The notes under the pieces are model-generated. The model did not search any database and had not been told where the DNA came from. It saw nothing but the letters and a program-made list of their open reading frames with translations. A stretch of DNA of 64,000 nucleotides from Marinobacter sediminum. GTDB taxonomy: Bacteria; Pseudomonadota; Gammaproteobacteria; Pseudomonadales; Oleiphilaceae. A program made the position numbers and the translations under genes. The stretch lies in NCBI RefSeq assembly GCF_016820575.1, contig NZ_JAEMQH010000002.1:679305-743304 (forward strand). The letters run 5' to 3'. Numbering within the stretch: position 1 is the first letter of the stretch; the number at the start of each line of letters is the position of its first letter. Positions 57,347-64,000 of this stretch are shown one piece after another.

Positions 57347-57370
57347 TCTTAATAACAGATGGTTAGAAAG

Positions 57371-57830
57371 TTAGTTGTTGAGTGTTGAGTAGACCAAAGT
57401 CGACATGTCGGTGTCTTTGGATCCAGGCGCCTCGATGTAGCGGTCGCCGGAGCCCCAACACTGCCACCAGGCTCCCGGCGATGGTCACTTCGTAGATCCC
57501 ATCGCCGTCTGTGGTTATCAATCGGGCAGACACCACAGAGTACCGGTTCAGGGAATTTTTTAGTGAGAGTTCCAGGCGATCTGCCACCACCTGCGGGCCC
57601 TGAATCGAGGCGGCGACCAAAATCGGCTCTCCGCGGGTGAAGCGGTATTGCTCGAGAATAAAGTTAAATTGGCCGTTATTGCCCAGCGGAAGGCTGACCG
57701 GTTCGTAGCGATTGCCGCGATAGCCCTCGGCTCGTGGGTCGGGACTCAGCCAACTAAAACTGGCGTGGCTGCTTGAGGCTAACCAATAGGCTGTTCCTGC
57801 AAAAAGCGAAGGAGCTACAGCCAAGACCAC
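57371..57830 (-). pseudogene. Unknown secreted protein with a probable frameshift
   Basis: Starting at the GTG (57830), a signal peptide (MVLAVAPSLFAGTAYWLASSSHA) is followed by about 95 residues rich in beta-prone segments (LEQYRFTRGEPILVAASIQG). Near GDGIYEVTI (about 57490) the frame changes character: in this frame it runs on with rare Arg and Leu codons (CGA, AGA, CTA) to 57363. The +2-shifted frame instead reads AWWQCWGSGDRYIEAP...VYSTLNN and stops at 57371, with GC-rich third positions like its neighbours. I infer a one-base indel, real or a sequencing error. It is last in an operon with YceI. No family is recognised. Confidence 0.6.
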
Positions 57831-57832
57831 AT

Positions 57833-58450
57833 TCAGAACCAGCCTGACTTCTGGTTGGCCTCAAAGCCAAATCGTAAGCGAACCTCATCCCCGACCAATG
57901 CTGGATCCAGTCCGTAGGTCATTCCCCAGTCACTTCGGCGCAGCGTAGTCTCGGCGCTGATCCCCAGGGTGAAGTCCTCATGCCCGATCGGGTAGTCAGC
58001 GGATTTATTAAGCGTCACATCCAAGATGACCGGGTTGGATTGTCCCAACATAGTCAGATCTCCGGTCACTTTGCCGGTCTTTTCACCGGTTGCTTCAAAT
58101 CCAGTGAGGTTGAAGGTGATTTCCGGGTATTTGCTGCTATGCAGAAAATCTGAACCTCGAAGATGCTCATCCCGCTTTTTATGGTTGGTGAACACGCTAC
58201 GACTTTCGAACACCAGGGTGCCTGATTCCAGCTCGCCGGTGGCGTCGTCGTATACAAACTGTCCTTCCACGTCCCGGAACATGCCGATCACCGGGGCGTA
58301 ACCGATATGCATGATTTCAAAGGACATGGAAAAGTGATCGGAGTCCACTTCAAACGTAGCAGGTTCGGCAAATGTCGTGGCGGGCATAGCGCAAGTACCT
58401 AGAATTAGAGCACAGCATGCGGCTTTGCCAATGGGATTTCCGTTAATCAT
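57833..58450 (-). CDS. YceI-family periplasmic lipid-binding protein
   Basis: 205 residues: signal peptide (CCALILGTCAMPATTFAEP, cleavage near 29) and a lipocalin-like barrel with YceI hallmarks DSDHFSMSFEIMHIGYAPVIGMFRDVEGQF, FTNHKKRDEHLRGSDFL, and TLRRSDWGMTYG. Family members bind isoprenoid or other amphipathic lipids in the periplasm. ATG at 58450 has AGGAGG 6 bases upstream and overlaps the end of the CDP-alcohol phosphatidyltransferase by 8 bases. Confidence 0.93.
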   Translation of the reverse strand: MINGNPIGKAACCALILGTCAMPATTFAEPATFEVDSDHFSMSFEIMHIGYAPVIGMFRDVEGQFVYDDATGELESGTLVFESRSVFTNHKKRDEHLRGSDFLHSSKYPEITFNLTGFEATGEKTGKVTGDLTMLGQSNPVILDVTLNKSADYPIGHEDFTLGISAETTLRRSDWGMTYGLDPALVGDEVRLRFGFEANQKSGWF

Positions 58451-59186
58451 GGGAGAACCTCCTTCGATGAAGCCAGCGAATATCCAGTCCAAATGACCAT
58501 GCCAACAGGGCCAGAGCCGTGGCCAGTGTGGTACCGGCAAACGCAGGCGATACGGGCGGCAGCAATGCCACCATCAGGGTAACGAGTTGCCACACGCAGA
58601 CAGTTTTGCGCCGGAAACTGTCGGGAAGCGGGTGCTTAAGCCAATGCCAGATTGTGCTCCCAGAGATAAAAGCATAGCGCATCAGACCTAAACAGAGCAC
58701 CCACGCTCCAGCTTTGTCCAGAGTCATAACCGCTATGCACAAACCGAGGATAAGAGCGGCGTCCAGCTCCATATCAAAGCGTGCGCCAAACCGGCTCTGA
58801 CATCGATTGGCCCGTGCCAGCGCGCCGTCCACGCCGTCCATTAGCAGGGCGGTCAGGGCAACGATGGCGTAAGTCCAAAGCTGGGCATCAAGGTGCCCTT
58901 TGGTCAGATGCCCGATAAAGGGAGCACTGGCCACGAGCGTCACAACCAGTGAGCTTCGAGCCAGGGTCGCCCGGTTGGCGGGGTTGAAGTCCTGGTCCGC
59001 AGGCCAGTGCCTGAAAACGCACCACCCAATGAATGCAAATAAACCGACAGCAATCGCCGGTGCAGCCGGCGTGAGCTGCCAGAACCAGGCCGCGGCCAGG
59101 CAGGCTGTAGCGGTTAATGCAAAGCCCCAAACCAGGTCCTGATGGATGGATAAGCCTGGCGGAGCCGTGTTGTCTCGAGAATCCAT
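58443..59186 (-). CDS. CDP-alcohol phosphatidyltransferase family enzyme
   Basis: 247 residues, six or so membrane helices. The catalytic motif DGVDGALAR...G...D...D is complete, with all four acidic residues (MDGVDGALARANRCQSRFG then FDMELD). Such enzymes displace CMP from a CDP-linked donor with an alcohol acceptor. The acceptor is unknown: the protein is larger and less conserved than PgsA or PssA. It heads a leftward operon with YceI and diverges from the MDR-PTPS-glycosyltransferase operon. Confidence 0.9.
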   Translation of the reverse strand: MDSRDNTAPPGLSIHQDLVWGFALTATACLAAAWFWQLTPAAPAIAVGLFAFIGWCVFRHWPADQDFNPANRATLARSSLVVTLVASAPFIGHLTKGHLDAQLWTYAIVALTALLMDGVDGALARANRCQSRFGARFDMELDAALILGLCIAVMTLDKAGAWVLCLGLMRYAFISGSTIWHWLKHPLPDSFRRKTVCVWQLVTLMVALLPPVSPAFAGTTLATALALLAWSFGLDIRWLHRRRFSHD

Positions 59187-59330
59187 AGCTGAGCCCTAGC
59201 GTATAGCTACTACACGGTGCAGACAGTGAAACACTCACAGACTGACTATAGTTGTGAAGAGCTAAGGGTGCTTACGCACAAGCGTGGTGTTCGGACCCAG
59301 TTTTCATTGGAAAAAAACAGGGAGAGGGCG

Positions 59331-60332
59331 GTGCAGCTGGATAACAGGCAGGAAATGGGGGATAGCCTGGCATGGTGGGTGACCGGGCCGGGCGAAGGGA
59401 TGCTGTCGCATGCGCCGGTGCGCTCCGAGAAGACCAATACCAATTGTGGGTGGGTAACCGTTGAAGCTCTTTATTCCGGTATCAGCCGAGGTACTGAAGC
59501 ATTGGTTTTCCGGGGGCAGGTCCCAGAGAGCGAATTTCAGCGTATGCGTGCTCCGTTCCAGCAGGGTGAATTTCCGTTTCCGGTAAAATACGGCTATGCC
59601 AATGTTGGACGGGTGGTTTCCGGGCCAAAACATTTGGAAGGCCGACTTGTCTTTTGCCTGTTTCCTCATCAACAACGCTTTCAGGTGCCTCAGGAAGCCG
59701 TGCAATTGATTCCTGACAATGTTCCGGCTGAACGTGCGGTGCTGGCGGCCAACCTGGAAACCGCGATCAACGGCCTGTGGGATGCCTTGCCGACCGTTGG
59801 CGATCGAATCCTGGTAGTTGGGCTGGGCGTGGTCGGGTTGCTGGTCGCGTGGCTGGCCAGGCAGATACCGGGGGCTCACGTCACCGCTATTGACCTCAAC
59901 CCGGCAAGACGCGCCCAGGCGGAGGCCTTGGGGCTCAAGTTTGCAGAGTGCCCTGACGAAAACGACTATGACCTGGTGTTTCACACCAGTGGCCACCCAT
60001 CGGGCCTAACCACGGCATTGTCAGTCGCGGGTCAGGAGTCCAAGGTTGTTGAAATGAGCTGGTACGGAAGCCGGAGAGTGGAAGTGCCTCTTGGCGAAGC
60101 TTTCCATTCCCGCCGGTTGACGCTCAGATCCAGCCAAGTCGGCCAGATTCCCTCCTACCAACAACCTCGATGGAACTATGGCCGGCGCATGAGGCTGGCG
60201 CTGGAGTTACTGGCCGATGACCGACTCGACTGCCTGATTACTGGGGAGACCCGGTTTGCCGATTTGCCAGAGGTTATGGGCGATATATTAGCGAATGACG
60301 GGCACACCCTGTGCCATCGAATTATTTACTAG
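59331..60332 (+). CDS. MDR-superfamily dehydrogenase lacking zinc ligands
   Basis: 333 residues with this start. The medium-chain dehydrogenase fold is clear: WVTGPGEG, EALYSGISRGTEALVF, FPFPVKYGYANVGRVV and the nucleotide-binding VVGLGVVGLLVAW. The catalytic Zn Cys is replaced by Ser (GISRGTE instead of GICGTD), and the GHE motif is KYGYANVG, so it probably works without zinc. The same variant (ISRGTE...KYGY) occurs in BchC-like proteins. GTG at 59331 is set by GGGAGAGGG just upstream; 38 further codons are open. First gene of the rightward operon. Confidence 0.82.
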   Translation: MQLDNRQEMGDSLAWWVTGPGEGMLSHAPVRSEKTNTNCGWVTVEALYSGISRGTEALVFRGQVPESEFQRMRAPFQQGEFPFPVKYGYANVGRVVSGPKHLEGRLVFCLFPHQQRFQVPQEAVQLIPDNVPAERAVLAANLETAINGLWDALPTVGDRILVVGLGVVGLLVAWLARQIPGAHVTAIDLNPARRAQAEALGLKFAECPDENDYDLVFHTSGHPSGLTTALSVAGQESKVVEMSWYGSRRVEVPLGEAFHSRRLTLRSSQVGQIPSYQQPRWNYGRRMRLALELLADDRLDCLITGETRFADLPEVMGDILANDGHTLCHRIIY

Positions 60333-60366
60333 TTTCCACCCACCGTTACCTTCCGGAGAACGATCT

Positions 60367-60765
60367 ATGTTCAGCTTGACCGTCCGAGACCACATGATGA
60401 TTGCCCATAGTTTTCGGGGCGAGATTTTCGGACCTGCACAGCAGGTCCACGGGGCAACTTACGTTGTGGATGTAGCCTTTGAGCGGCAGGAGTTGGATGC
60501 GGACAACCTGGTGGTCGATATTGGCCTGGCGGCGTCAGTGCTTAAAGACGTTCTCGCAGAATTCAACATGAAGAATCTGGACGACCTTGAGCAACTGCAG
60601 AGTCAGAATACCACTACCGAGTTCATGGCCAGGCAGGTGTTTGAGCGCATGGCAGCTGCGATCAGGACAGGGCGTCTGGGCGAGTCCGCCCAAGGTATGA
60701 ACAGCCTGAAAGTGACCCTGTCTGAATCCCACATTGCCTGGGCCAGTTTCCATGGCAAGCTCTGA
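60367..60765 (+). CDS. Degenerate 6-pyruvoyl-tetrahydropterin synthase-like protein
   Basis: 132 residues with a QueD/PTPS-like layout: AHSFRGE (His14), QQVHGATY (His28), and the C-terminal LSESHIAWASF strand with the substrate-anchoring Glu. Compared with QueD/PTPS, the third zinc ligand is Ala30 (HGA for HGH), no Cys exists anywhere in the protein, and the DHH/DHxxLN segment is FNMKNLDDL. So canonical pterin synthase chemistry is unlikely unless the site was rebuilt. GGAG lies 8 bases before the ATG. It overlaps the next gene by 14 bases. Confidence 0.7.
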   Translation: MFSLTVRDHMMIAHSFRGEIFGPAQQVHGATYVVDVAFERQELDADNLVVDIGLAASVLKDVLAEFNMKNLDDLEQLQSQNTTTEFMARQVFERMAAAIRTGRLGESAQGMNSLKVTLSESHIAWASFHGKL

Positions 60766-62692
60766 TTTCAGCCCGGTCCTTCGATTTGTAGTGCCTGGTG
60801 ATCCCGGTCAGAACACCGGTGGCTACCGCTATGTTCGTCGTGCTGTCGATGCAATAAACGAACTCGGTACCCGGGCTGTTGTCACCGGGCTGGCTGGGCA
60901 GTTTCCGCGTCCCGACCAGCGGGCACTGGCGGCGATGAATCATTGCCTGGAACAGTGCCCGGACTCAGCGGTGGTGGTGCTCGATGGTCTGGCTATAGGT
61001 GCCATGCCGCAGGTTATAGAGGAGCATGCGCAGCGTTTGAAGCTAATAGCGTTAATCCATCACCCACTTGCCGATGAAACGGGGTTGTCGGAGGAAGAAC
61101 GCCAGTGGTTCTTCGAGCAGGAACGCCGCGCCCTGGCAGCCGTGGCCCATGTGGTGACTACCAGCGCGTTCACTGTTGGGCGCCTTGCGGCTTTCGGTGT
61201 TTCTGCTGACCGAATTGATACTGCGCATCCAGGCGTTGCAATCAAAGCCAGGCTTCAAACGAACAATGACGTCCGCCGTGCACCTGTTCCCCAGTTACTC
61301 TGTGTTGGCCATCTCTCTCAGCGCAAAGCGCAACATCAGTTAGTTAAAGCCTTACAGAACCTTCAATCCCTACCGTGGCATTGCACTCTCGCAGGTTCCC
61401 TGGATCGAGATTCTGCCTACAGTCAGGAAGTTGCCAATCAGATCCGAAAGGCCGGGCTGGAAGGGCGGGTAGAGCTCACCGGAGAAGTAGCCGAAAGACG
61501 GTTATTGGAGCTGTACCAACAGGCTGATGTGTTCGTGTTTCCCTCCCTCTATGAGGGCTATGGGATGGTGATTGACGAGGCCATTGCGTCTGGCTTGCCT
61601 GTCATAACCTCGGACGGTGGCGCTTTAGCCAACACTGGCGACCAGCCAGGTGTTCTTCAGTACCCGGCTGGCGACGTTGAGGCTTTGGAATCGGCGCTGC
61701 GAGCCTGGCTGAGTGATCCTGAAGGACTGGCACAGCAAACAACGCAGGCACAATGCCTGTCGAGCCCCCTTCGCACCTGGGAGAATGCTGCGCAGGTTTT
61801 TTTGAAGGTGGCAGGGTTGGGCTGCGTCGCGGCGGGCAGTGTGTTTGAGAATAGTTGGCTGGAACTCCGTGAAAGTGCGGACCACCAAGCGAGATCGATG
61901 GCGCTGACCGAAGCCGTGGATCGTTGGCTTCATCGGGATGTTGCCGGGCAAGTTGATGCCGGTTCCCGGGAGCCAGTGACGATTGTCGACCTGGGTACGG
62001 GGCGTGGATCCAACGCTGTGTTTCTGGCGCCGAGGCTCCTTGTGCCGAAGCAGTGGCTGCTGCTGGATCACGATGCCTCATTGCTGACGGTGGCGAAGGA
62101 TCGGTTGACGCAACTGGGGGAATCGAGTTCGGTGGCTGAGGCATGGCTGACAGCTGACTCGCTGGCCGCACAGATTCCCTCTGAGGCAAGGCTGATCACC
62201 GCTTCTGCACTGATCGACCTTGTCTCAGAGGAATGGCTGGATGCGCTGGTGGCGTCGGCTGGGTCGCAGAGAGCCGCGCTGCTTGTGACCCTGAGTTACT
62301 CCGGCCAATTCCGTTTGGAACCCGAACACCCATGCGACGAGCGAGTGCAGACGCTGGTCAATCAGCATCAGAGAGGCGAGAAGGGAACCGGCCGGGCGTT
62401 GGGGCCAGATGCACCTCGCGTACTGGCAAAAAAACTGAAACAGGCGGGCCACTCCGTTGAAATCTCTGAAACCCCTTGGCGGCTCAATGCCCGTGATCGA
62501 GCACTGATCAGCCAGTTGCTGGAAGGTTGGGTGGCAGCAGCGGCTGAGCTGGCTCCTGATATCAACGGCGACGGTTCAGAATGGCTGTCGGATTGGTTGT
62601 CGGATCGAAAGCGTTGGCTGGCCGAGGGCCGTCTGTCGGTCAGCGTCCACCACTTGGATCTGATGGCGCTTCCTCCGGATCAAATCTCATGA
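60752..62692 (+). CDS. Glycosyltransferase (GT4) fused to a class I methyltransferase
   Basis: 646 residues. N-terminal half (about 1-365): GT-B fold of family GT4, with PGDPGQNTGGYRYVRR, LCVGHLSQRKAQHQLVKAL and the donor-site EGYGMVIDEAIASGLPVITSDGG containing EX7E. C-terminal half (about 400-646): SAM-dependent methyltransferase with motif I VDLGTGRGSNAVFLAPRL and acidic motif II LLLDHDASLL. The linker is around 365-400. It is coupled to the PTPS-like gene and to the next membrane protein (ATGA), so all three are made together. Confidence 0.85.
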   Translation: MASSDFSPVLRFVVPGDPGQNTGGYRYVRRAVDAINELGTRAVVTGLAGQFPRPDQRALAAMNHCLEQCPDSAVVVLDGLAIGAMPQVIEEHAQRLKLIALIHHPLADETGLSEEERQWFFEQERRALAAVAHVVTTSAFTVGRLAAFGVSADRIDTAHPGVAIKARLQTNNDVRRAPVPQLLCVGHLSQRKAQHQLVKALQNLQSLPWHCTLAGSLDRDSAYSQEVANQIRKAGLEGRVELTGEVAERRLLELYQQADVFVFPSLYEGYGMVIDEAIASGLPVITSDGGALANTGDQPGVLQYPAGDVEALESALRAWLSDPEGLAQQTTQAQCLSSPLRTWENAAQVFLKVAGLGCVAAGSVFENSWLELRESADHQARSMALTEAVDRWLHRDVAGQVDAGSREPVTIVDLGTGRGSNAVFLAPRLLVPKQWLLLDHDASLLTVAKDRLTQLGESSSVAEAWLTADSLAAQIPSEARLITASALIDLVSEEWLDALVASAGSQRAALLVTLSYSGQFRLEPEHPCDERVQTLVNQHQRGEKGTGRALGPDAPRVLAKKLKQAGHSVEISETPWRLNARDRALISQLLEGWVAAAAELAPDINGDGSEWLSDWLSDRKRWLAEGRLSVSVHHLDLMALPPDQIS

Positions 62693-63666
62693 GGCAGGTT
62701 GCTGCGCTTTGGCGCTGGCTCATGGCATTCCTGTTGCTGGCCGGTCTGGCTTTGTTTCTGGACCTGGATCGACTGTGGCTGGAGCTTCAGCGTTTACCAG
62801 CATCTTTGCTGCTACCGGTCTTAGCTCTGACGGTCTTTCAGGTAGGGTTGTCGGCCTGGCGCTGGCGATACACCGCCAAGCGTCTGGGTCTTCAGATGTC
62901 CTACTCCCGGGCTTTTCGCGAGTATTACCTGGCGAGCTTCCTCAATCAGGTGCTCCCGGGTGGGGTAATGGGGGATGCTGGTCGAGCTTGGCGGCACAGC
63001 CGGGAAACGGATAAGAAACTCGGGGCCGTGCATGCTGTAATTATTGAGCGTTTGTCCGGACAGTTTGCACTGTTTTTGGTGGTGGCCTGGGCAGTGGCGT
63101 GGCTGAGTGAGTCTGGTCGCTTCAGCCCGAACTTGTCAGTCGGTTGGCTACTTCCCGTCGTAGCCATTGGCAGCCTGGCTGTCGGCCTTTGGGGGATGCG
63201 CAGCAAAAATCGGGCTGGGCGCTATATACGCCGCCTGTGCAAGGACCTGTCACAGACGCTGTTTGGCTGGCAGGTCTTGCCGATTCAGTTGGGGACCTCT
63301 TTACTGGTGCTCGGGAGTTACCTCGCCGTCTTTTTTTTACTTGCCCAGCAGGCCGGATATATAGAACGGGAGGGCTCCGGGTTTTTAATGCTGGCACTTT
63401 GCAGTTTGTTGCTATTAAGCATGGTGATCCCACTGACAGTAGCTGGCTGGGGCGTGCGAGAAGGGGCGGCAGCCGTTTTGTGGCCATTAGCCGGGTTGCC
63501 CGCTGAGCAGGGCGTGGCCCTGAGTGTGGCTTATGGAGTTTTGGTGTTGATCTCGTCCTTCCCGGGGCTGGCTGTGTTGCTTAGGAGGCAGTCCCCGGTA
63601 GGGGTGAAAAACGGGAACCGGCTTACGAAAACTCCAGGTCAAACAACATATCGCTGCCCAGATTGA
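62689..63666 (+). CDS. UPF0104/LPG-synthase-TM family membrane protein
   Basis: 325 residues, about eight membrane helices (LMAFLLLAGLALFL first; later VVAWAVAWLSE, LLLLSMVIPLTVAGWGVREGAAA). The AFREYYLASFLNQVLPGGVMGDAGRAWRHSR segment is the family signature shared with the flippase-like part of MprF and with YbhN. Such proteins are candidate lipid flippases or lipid-linked intermediate handlers. Here it lacks the soluble aminoacyl-transfer domain. The start overlaps the previous stop as ATGA. It converges with the RibD-like gene, overlapping 44 bases. Confidence 0.85.
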   Translation: MRQVAALWRWLMAFLLLAGLALFLDLDRLWLELQRLPASLLLPVLALTVFQVGLSAWRWRYTAKRLGLQMSYSRAFREYYLASFLNQVLPGGVMGDAGRAWRHSRETDKKLGAVHAVIIERLSGQFALFLVVAWAVAWLSESGRFSPNLSVGWLLPVVAIGSLAVGLWGMRSKNRAGRYIRRLCKDLSQTLFGWQVLPIQLGTSLLVLGSYLAVFFLLAQQAGYIEREGSGFLMLALCSLLLLSMVIPLTVAGWGVREGAAAVLWPLAGLPAEQGVALSVAYGVLVLISSFPGLAVLLRRQSPVGVKNGNRLTKTPGQTTYRCPD

Positions 63667-64000
63667 TCAGCTGGGATTTAGGGCGCAGGGCGCCATCGAG
63701 TTGATCGATCTCCGGCAGCGAGAAAGCGGGCCGCCCACTGCCAATGATCATTGGCGCCACCATGACATGCAGGCGGTCCAGCAGGCCAGCGTTAAGGAAA
63801 GACGACACTGTCAGGCCACCGCCTTCGATAAAGATTTTTCGCAGGCCAAAATCACTCAGCACCTGCAGAATCACTCGAGGGTCAACAGGCTCGGTTTGTT
63901 CTCTATCGCCCAGACAAGCGACTTCGGTGACCTGACCATACTCCCTTGCCACTGACTGCGAGTCGTACTGACCAGCAACCAGCCTGATTGTCCGGGATTT
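63623..64000 (-). CDS. RibD C-terminal-like reductase (partial, cut by window edge)
   Basis: The last 125 residues of a RibD_C/dihydrofolate-reductase-like protein. IFIEGGGLTVSSFLNAGLLDRLHVMVAPMIIGSGRPAF is the family ending, with the EGGG NADPH-binding turn. The frame is open to base 64000, so the start lies outside. Canonical RibD reduces the GTP cyclohydrolase II product in riboflavin synthesis; stand-alone homologues occur in antibiotic and pteridine pathways. Its convergence on the PTPS/glycosyltransferase operon suggests a shared pathway. Confidence 0.82.
   Translation of the reverse strand, partial: KSRTIRLVAGQYDSQSVAREYGQVTEVACLGDREQTEPVDPRVILQVLSDFGLRKIFIEGGGLTVSSFLNAGLLDRLHVMVAPMIIGSGRPAFSLPEIDQLDGALRPKSQLINLGSDMLFDLEFS

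Follow-up and report, generated by a model that had tools for sequence, protein, structure and literature searches.

PTPS-IV proteins form a published, functionally unsettled subgroup of COG0720, the family of 6-pyruvoyltetrahydropterin synthase (PTPS), and are marked by the motif FGPAQ (PMC5445326). In the AGeNNT analysis, cluster-node 62 places PF00925 and PF01872 genes next to FGPAQ-type PTPS-IV genes; the section on this node labels PF00925 as FolE2/cyclohydrolase I and mentions no medium-chain dehydrogenase (MDR), family 4 glycosyltransferase (GT4), methyltransferase, phosphatidyltransferase, flippase, creatininase, YceI, cytochrome b561 or pathway (PMC5445326). A longer row is found on a Streptomyces plasmid, where genes for a CDP-alcohol phosphatidyltransferase (CDPOH), a dehydrogenase, PTPS, GT4, a methyltransferase, a creatininase and ribA follow the same order as here; a flippase is not listed there but is present in further actinomycete PTPS-IV loci. 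Here we describe a gene block at the right edge of a 64,000-nucleotide stretch of Marinobacter sediminum DNA (contig NZ_JAEMQH010000002.1, positions 679,305 to 743,304; hereafter the window), from a Marinobacter-type genome of 3.72 Mb. Compared with the actinomycete PTPS-IV loci, the Marinobacter form adds a glycosyltransferase–methyltransferase fusion, a RED-type reductase and a YceI protein, and it is without the second GTP cyclohydrolase II (RIBA2) and nearly always without the creatininase-type hydrolase (CREA). The open-access literature already covers the PTPS-IV subgroup, a structure for SCO6650 and two of the neighbours; we found no description there of the whole set, of its product or of pterin lipids.

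We tentatively read the block as the Marinobacter version of a widespread, PTPS-IV-centred pathway that would lead from GTP through a dihydropterin to a glycosylated and methylated product. The gene set probably turns GTP into a pterin-like compound that is methylated and linked to a sugar and that in many cases is anchored in the membrane. The shared core is MDR, PTPS-IV, GT4 and methyltransferase, usually with the RED-type reductase and often with RIBA2, CREA or both. Gene families were called with Pfam and NCBIfam models on the open reading frames of the window, with likely starts deduced from the sequence, and all seven families named in the initial annotation were recovered.

The PTPS gene lies at 60367..60765 on the forward strand and encodes 132 amino acids (Pfam PTPS PF01242, 2.6e-22), with its closest named relative in Marinobacter similis (93% identity). 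By its sequence it is a member of PTPS-IV: it carries FGPAQ and matches SCO6650, a T-fold protein of solved structure (PDB 3d7j), at 2e-45, and the family profile reaches 3.5e-66 against SCO6650 and 1.6e-5 against the true PTPS 2g64. FGPAQ is invariant in all 14 aligned proteins and was found by pattern in 30 of 33; the proteins off the pattern are one with FGPAR (L082) and two distant ones (L184 and L185). The protein had been described as a degenerate PTPS, and alignment to 2g64 bears this out, as HGH has become HGA and other residues stand at the Cys and Asp-His positions, so that the catalytic and third zinc residues are gone. The full set of three zinc histidines, Cys and Asp-His expected of a catalytic PTPS or QueD is therefore not there, the QueD and 6PTHBS models score below their cut-offs, and the C-terminal Glu is retained. 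SCO6650 itself is reported to lack zinc and PTPS activity. As for the neighbours expected of PTPS-IV, PF01872 is present at the locus, and PF00925 is found in none of the 46 Marinobacter loci.

To compare loci, we ran a scan of genome contigs with the PTPS, which gave 322 relatives, and kept the best 80 (46 Marinobacter and 34 others); we added 18 loci of the 27 positives among 398 sampled Pseudomonadota and 9 loci of the 11 positives among 296 sampled Actinomycetota. The counted set was thus 46 Marinobacter and 61 non-Marinobacter loci, and a gene was scored as present if it lay within 9 kb of PTPS. As the loci were picked by PTPS-IV similarity, all counts are conditional on PTPS-IV, and the family profiles were built partly from the same loci that they scored. 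The script scores L076 and L077 as lacking PTPS and L184 as lacking a methyltransferase, yet tblastn finds PTPS in the first two and Pfam finds the methyltransferase in the third. Three Marinobacter loci (L036, L056 and L073) are interrupted by contig ends. For thinned counts, loci linked by dehydrogenases at 75% identity were merged, which left 40 loci.

The row is present in 45 of the 46 Marinobacter loci and, with varying completeness and a mostly similar strand pattern, in the 61 others from three phyla; the initial annotation had proposed a search for the same neighbours. Among the 61, the core is nearly constant (MDR in 61, GT4 in 60, PTPS in 59 plus the two found by tblastn, methyltransferase in 56), followed by the reductase (49), CDPOH (40), RIBA2 (38), CREA (33) and the flippase (32), and then by YceI and a sulfatase-like membrane protein (14 each), a family 2 glycosyltransferase (GT2; 13) and cytochrome b561 (7). 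The 46 Marinobacter loci have PTPS in 46, MDR, CDPOH and YceI in 45 each, GT4 in 44, the reductase and flippase in 42 each, the methyltransferase in 38, GT2 in 13, CREA in one and RIBA2 in none. Annotated rows tell the same story. Peteryoungia desertarenae has genes for a sulfatase, LPG-synthase-TM, an FkbM methyltransferase, a phosphatidyltransferase, ribA, a dehydrogenase, PTPS, GT4, a methyltransferase, RibD and cytochrome b; Candidatus Thiodictyon has, on a single strand, a dehydrogenase, PTPS, GT4, a methyltransferase, cytochrome b, RibD and a phosphatidyltransferase. Similar rows occur in Methylosinus (including mdoH, with a 'hypothetical protein' at the place of the methyltransferase), Microbacterium, Agrobacterium and Streptomyces fungicidicus. 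No relatives were found among viral contigs. The recurrence of the same neighbours in three phyla indicates that the gene set is real and conserved beyond chance. FkbM-type methyltransferases also lie near the core in L108, L155, L156 and L189 (Pfam for L155, annotation for L189, similarity for L108 and L156).

From the genes we infer the chemistry, the product, its methylation and the lipid link, in the following order. RIBA2 would open GTP to a diaminopyrimidine nucleotide, which in some lineages would still be formylated; CREA would take off the formyl group; and the reductase would convert the ribosyl to a ribityl chain, leaving the ring not deaminated. The zinc-less MDR would then oxidize the ribityl chain, probably at C2', and in the pocket of PTPS-IV the 5-amino group would join the resulting ketone and close the ring to a 6-polyhydroxypropyl-7,8-dihydropterin, a pterin of the dihydroneopterin type reached without GTP cyclohydrolase I. 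Since reduction at C1' and oxidation at C2' would yield the carbon skeleton to which cyclohydrolase I comes by a rearrangement, the free 5-amino group could close to a 6-substituted 7,8-dihydropterin. GT4 would glycosylate this pterin and the methyltransferase methylate it, and in lineages with CDPOH and the flippase, Marinobacter included, the pterin would be joined to phosphatidate and flipped, with YceI perhaps carrying the product in the periplasm. Such a ring route would use every core enzyme once and would account for a polyol-type dehydrogenase next to a pterin-type fold without PTPS catalysis. If true, it would be a second pterin route from GTP and would add a new class to the head groups of membrane lipids, and it could supply a ligand for YceI lipocalins and a substrate for orphan cytochromes b561; its central gene occurs in 27 of the 398 Pseudomonadota and 11 of the 296 Actinomycetota genomes that were sampled, and one member of the family has a solved structure.

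Several features of the loci bear on the first steps. The initial annotation predicted that the block would have a GTP cyclohydrolase II and a hydrolase of the creatininase/ArfB type as neighbours; this holds in many of the non-Marinobacter loci counted above (38 and 33 of 61, respectively), and in the window's genome neither a RibA nor a creatininase gene lies within 11.7 kb to the right of the window end. In the rest of the window's genome we also found no creatininase, and its two PF00925 genes sit on other contigs. With RIBA2 absent and CREA nearly so from the Marinobacter loci, the first step would fall there to the housekeeping RibA, whose ordinary Tyr should yield a deformylated product. 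We considered a block-specific extra RibA in Marinobacter and rejected it, as PF00925 genes number two in 60 of 61 same-genus genomes and three in the other, with or without the block; the PTPS gene is in 35 of these 61. The only Marinobacter locus with a creatininase is that of M. mangrovi, where the gene stands beside the reductase (L089 14147-14938). No GTP cyclohydrolase I was found in 113 loci at E 1e-3 with the window genome's own enzyme as query.

SCO6655, a cyclohydrolase II homologue in the SCO6650 region, is said to halt at the formylated product owing to a Met at its switch residue. We aligned the 38 locus RIBA2 proteins with the housekeeping RibA of the window's genome and located the switch position, which we take to be that of E. 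coli Tyr105, by counting from the Cys motif. The residue is Tyr in 29, Met in five (Streptomyces-like actinomycetes), Ile in three (Halomonas) and His in one (Amycolatopsis). All nine non-Tyr proteins are beside CREA, as are 19 of the Tyr proteins; the other ten are not. The S. fungicidicus plasmid RibA, which adjoins a creatininase gene, has Met at this position. BrbF, of the creatininase family, has been proven to deformylate a formylated pyrimidine nucleotide intermediate (PMC9478397), and the activity predicted for CREA resembles that of the BrbF and ArfB formamidases, although BrbF acts in the riboflavin pathway (PMC9478397). The reductase gene (reverse strand, 63623..64000 within the window; 287 amino acids; Pfam RibD_C PF01872, 1.7e-14) starts at 64486, 486 bp past the window end (L002 7928-8791). 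Its family profile matches the 2,5-diamino-6-ribosylamino-pyrimidinone 5'-phosphate reductase 6p8c (4.3e-53) and the archaeal-type 2azn (7.4e-46), both above bifunctional RibD; DG and EGG motifs are present in 26 of 26 proteins, and Pfam matched no deaminase domain in the part tested. The protein thus resembles an archaeal-like, RED-type diaminopyrimidine reductase, as which we predict it to act.

The MDR gene (59355..60332, forward strand) encodes a BchC/polyol-dehydrogenase-like protein. ADH_zinc_N PF00107 matches at 2.7e-7 (31.0 bits, just under the cut-off of 31.8), AlaDh_PNT_C PF01262 is above its cut-off, and ADH_N is unmatched at E 0.01. BchC is the best NCBIfam model (3.2e-16), but its 59.4 bits fall far below the cut-off of 291.25. 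At the zinc-ligand places, which we mapped from what we take to be the GICGTD motif, Ser stands for the canonical Cys and Tyr-x for His-Glu; S66 and Y103 are invariant in 26 of 26 proteins, in agreement with the earlier description of an enzyme without zinc ligands. Butanediol, idonate, sorbitol and galactitol-phosphate dehydrogenases are among the best PDB matches of both the profile and an AlphaFold model (pLDDT 89), which point to a predicted place in the diol/polyol branch. FolB (dihydroneopterin aldolase) adjoins the core in the actinomycetes L184 and L185 and in L108 is separated from it by about 1.6 kb, which fits weakly with a dihydroneopterin-type intermediate.

It is possible, if rather unlikely, that no pterin ring is closed and that the same start from GTP leads to a ribityl-pyrimidine, a lumazine or a flavin-like compound that is glycosylated and methylated, with PTPS-IV acting as an aldolase, an epimerase or a binding protein. 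RIBA2 and the RED-type reductase are indeed riboflavin-pathway enzyme types, and PTPS-IV lacks the PTPS catalytic residues. Such a product would, however, leave the polyol-type dehydrogenase and the pterin-type T-fold protein unneeded, and the loci listed by eye or annotated, a survey that was not a systematic search, showed no recognizable gene for RibH, RibE or a deaminase.

For the later steps of the proposed dihydropterin pathway, the window encodes GT4 fused to a class I S-adenosylmethionine-dependent methyltransferase in a single frame (60752..62692, forward strand; 646 amino acids). Pfam finds Glycos_transf_1 and a weak Methyltransf_25 (0.0013, under the cut-off). A fused length occurs in 5 of the 33 loci compared; elsewhere there are two genes. 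The best PDB match of the GT4 profile is 6kih, followed by MshA and PimB/PimA, with the tetrahydrobiopterin glucosyltransferase BGluT (5ze7) lower, at 1e-13. BGluT is a GT4 enzyme that acts on a pterin, as we propose for the block GT4, and has no lipid module; it is cyanobacterial, and its pterin is the product of a pathway with GTP cyclohydrolase I and a genuine PTPS. The model of the methyltransferase domain (pLDDT 92) has generic class I methyltransferases as relatives, none of them specific.

A number of observations weigh against this pathway. GT4 matches 6kih, MshA and PimB much more strongly than the pterin enzyme, and the best matches of the MDR also include threonine and simple alcohol dehydrogenases. 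The co-occurrence of RIBA2 and CREA (p 1.4e-4 unthinned) is not significant after thinning (p 0.10), and with 19 Tyr-type RIBA2 proteins also accompanied by CREA the formyl rule is one-sided. The reductase was not at the locus in 12 of the 61 non-Marinobacter cases, as counted at the locus with no search elsewhere in those genomes; these include Amycolatopsis (L109), five Streptomyces-like loci (L177-L180 and L182; label inferred) and L106, which is cut by a contig end. The two genomes in which FolB adjoins the core are related, and the gene could be there as an ordinary neighbour from folate synthesis. A Rhodobacteraceae plasmid row is without a glycosyltransferase, which speaks against a strict unit, and two Streptomyces plasmids (L186 and L198) carry an orphan PTPS-IV without the core. 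The nearest named relatives of CDPOH use glycerol- or inositol-phosphate, and CDPOH is absent within 9 kb in 21 of the 61 non-Marinobacter loci, 11 of which have an MdoH-like GT2, so that lipid attachment would lie outside the core. The orphan genes of L186 and L198 lie near cupin, MBL-fold, sigma-70 and BTAD regulator genes.

The membrane-side genes of the window are those for CDPOH (58443..59186, reverse strand; 247 amino acids; Pfam CDP-OH_P_transf PF01066, 2.4e-17), a UPF0104/LPG_synthase_TM flippase-like membrane protein (62689..63666, forward strand; PF03706, 1.1e-37 to 1.6e-37) and a YceI-family secreted lipocalin (57833..58450, reverse strand; 205 amino acids; PF04264, 1.7e-39 to 2.6e-39; a Sec-type signal peptide by eye). 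PgsA and archaetidylinositol-phosphate synthase are the best NCBIfam models for CDPOH, both below cut-off; its motif DxxDGxxARx(8-9)GxxxDxxxD is present in 18 of 18 homologues tested. The earlier call of a flippase-like protein is supported by PF03706 and not by TIGR00374, for which the protein is below cut-off. The flippase always occurs with CDPOH (32 of 32 non-Marinobacter and 42 of 42 Marinobacter loci; thinned, 14 of 14, Fisher 5.5e-6), as does YceI outside Marinobacter (14 of 14; thinned, 7 of 7). YceI is lineage-specific, with 45 of 46 Marinobacter loci against 14 of 61 others. GT2 and CDPOH are found together in 2 of the 13 non-Marinobacter GT2 loci (p 0.012 thinned), and 6 of the 7 cytochrome b561 loci there have GT2. 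Because the flippase and YceI track CDPOH while GT2 tends to occur without it, we see a core with alternative envelope modules and no fixed nine-gene unit. The word glycolipid in the initial annotation accordingly suits the lineages with a phosphatidyltransferase and not the loci without one. A stronger rule, that GT2 replaces CDPOH, was weakened by GT2 matches 8.4-9.0 kb from 12 of the 46 Marinobacter blocks, which carry CDPOH; these matches are weaker (353-422 bits) than those of most other loci (504-1110 bits). GT2 stands beside the core without CDPOH in L149, L151, L153, L154 and L157-L160, and six of these eight have cytochrome b561 (Pfam on L149 and L153).

The modular arrangement also leaves some room, in our view not much, for two separate functions, in which the core would make a soluble pterin-type glycoside and the CDPOH, flippase, YceI and sulfatase-like genes would make or move an unrelated membrane lipid and only travel with the core. 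The loci with a core and no CDPOH, many of them with GT2, would fit, as would the patchiness of YceI and the sulfatase-like genes outside Marinobacter. However, where both genes are present, CDPOH and MDR are divergently oriented in all 45 Marinobacter loci and in 39 of the 40 others; CDPOH is on the same strand as the core in Thiodictyon, and the flippase was never found without CDPOH.

The boldest extension of the pterin pathway concerns the envelope. BcnA is said to belong to the YceI family. Together with the cytochrome b561 LcoA, this secreted lipocalin forms a system against lipid peroxyl radicals (PMC9113575). Proteins of both kinds adjoin the core in some lineages, cytochrome b genes in some non-Marinobacter ones; the abstract on BcnA–LcoA mentions no pterin pathway (PMC9113575). 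At 90 bits, no cytochrome b561 was found within 9 kb of PTPS in the 46 Marinobacter loci, which gave one 23-bit match (L057). A BcnA–LcoA-type system would pair naturally with a reduced pterin carried by a lipid. It is unlikely but conceivable that many bacteria anchor in their membrane a redox-active pterin glycolipid, made by the ring route proposed above and hence without GTP cyclohydrolase I, and use it with YceI lipocalins and cytochrome b561 to counter oxidation or carry electrons in the envelope.

We regard as very improbable a pathway that makes or modifies an F420-like deazaflavin. To our knowledge, GT4 and methyltransferase have no role in the F420 pathway, and no FO-synthase gene was recognized in the loci listed by eye or annotated, again without a systematic search; on the other side, an aside in a review, citing unpublished data, ties PTPS-IV to archaeal F420 (PMC5041015), which also counts against a pterin product. 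A chance neighbourhood of unrelated genes, for which nothing more than the mixed gene names would speak, has next to no likelihood given the same core, mostly on the same strands, in 45 of 46 Marinobacter loci and 61 loci of three phyla.

Within the window, the genes are tightly packed. The statement that the first four overlap or nearly overlap proved accurate from MDR to the flippase: MDR and PTPS are separated by 34 bp, PTPS and the fusion gene overlap by 14 bp, and the fusion gene and the flippase gene by 4 bp (ATGA). The reductase gene, on the opposite strand, overlaps the 3' end of the flippase gene by 44 bp, and the YceI and CDPOH genes overlap by 8 bp. The left edge given earlier, 57371, is 462 bp too far left and falls inside an open reading frame (57363-57830) that we rejected as a block member, as it is a deletion relic: relative to M. 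similis about 1.6 kb is deleted, which fuses the first part of one gene (its product has 319-357 amino acids in two relatives) with the final 30 codons of the gene next to it (93% identity). Neither contributing gene matches Pfam at 0.001; the one that supplies the tail looks like a hydrolase by eye.

To the right of the reductase lie genes for an XRE-type regulator, GalU, an outer-membrane protein (weak ShlB match), a GntR-type regulator and the 2-methylcitrate (prp) genes, most of them named by eye. Riboflavin genes in the flanks together with a lack of conservation had been named in the initial annotation as what would make a joint pathway unlikely; the flank is instead XRE, GalU and prp, and the block is conserved. 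The XRE regulator was rejected as a block member, as M. daepoensis keeps it with GalU after losing the rest of the block. That genome has a lone PTPS-IV open reading frame (L095 9578-9973) between the usual flanking genes, with FGLAQ and TTTAF in place of FGPAQ and TTTEF, which looks like a decaying remnant. An Rfam scan of 20 kb returned tRNA only. Beside the methylcitrate genes, L002 18529-19032 encodes a short, secreted-looking protein with, by eye, a PEP-CTERM-like tail.

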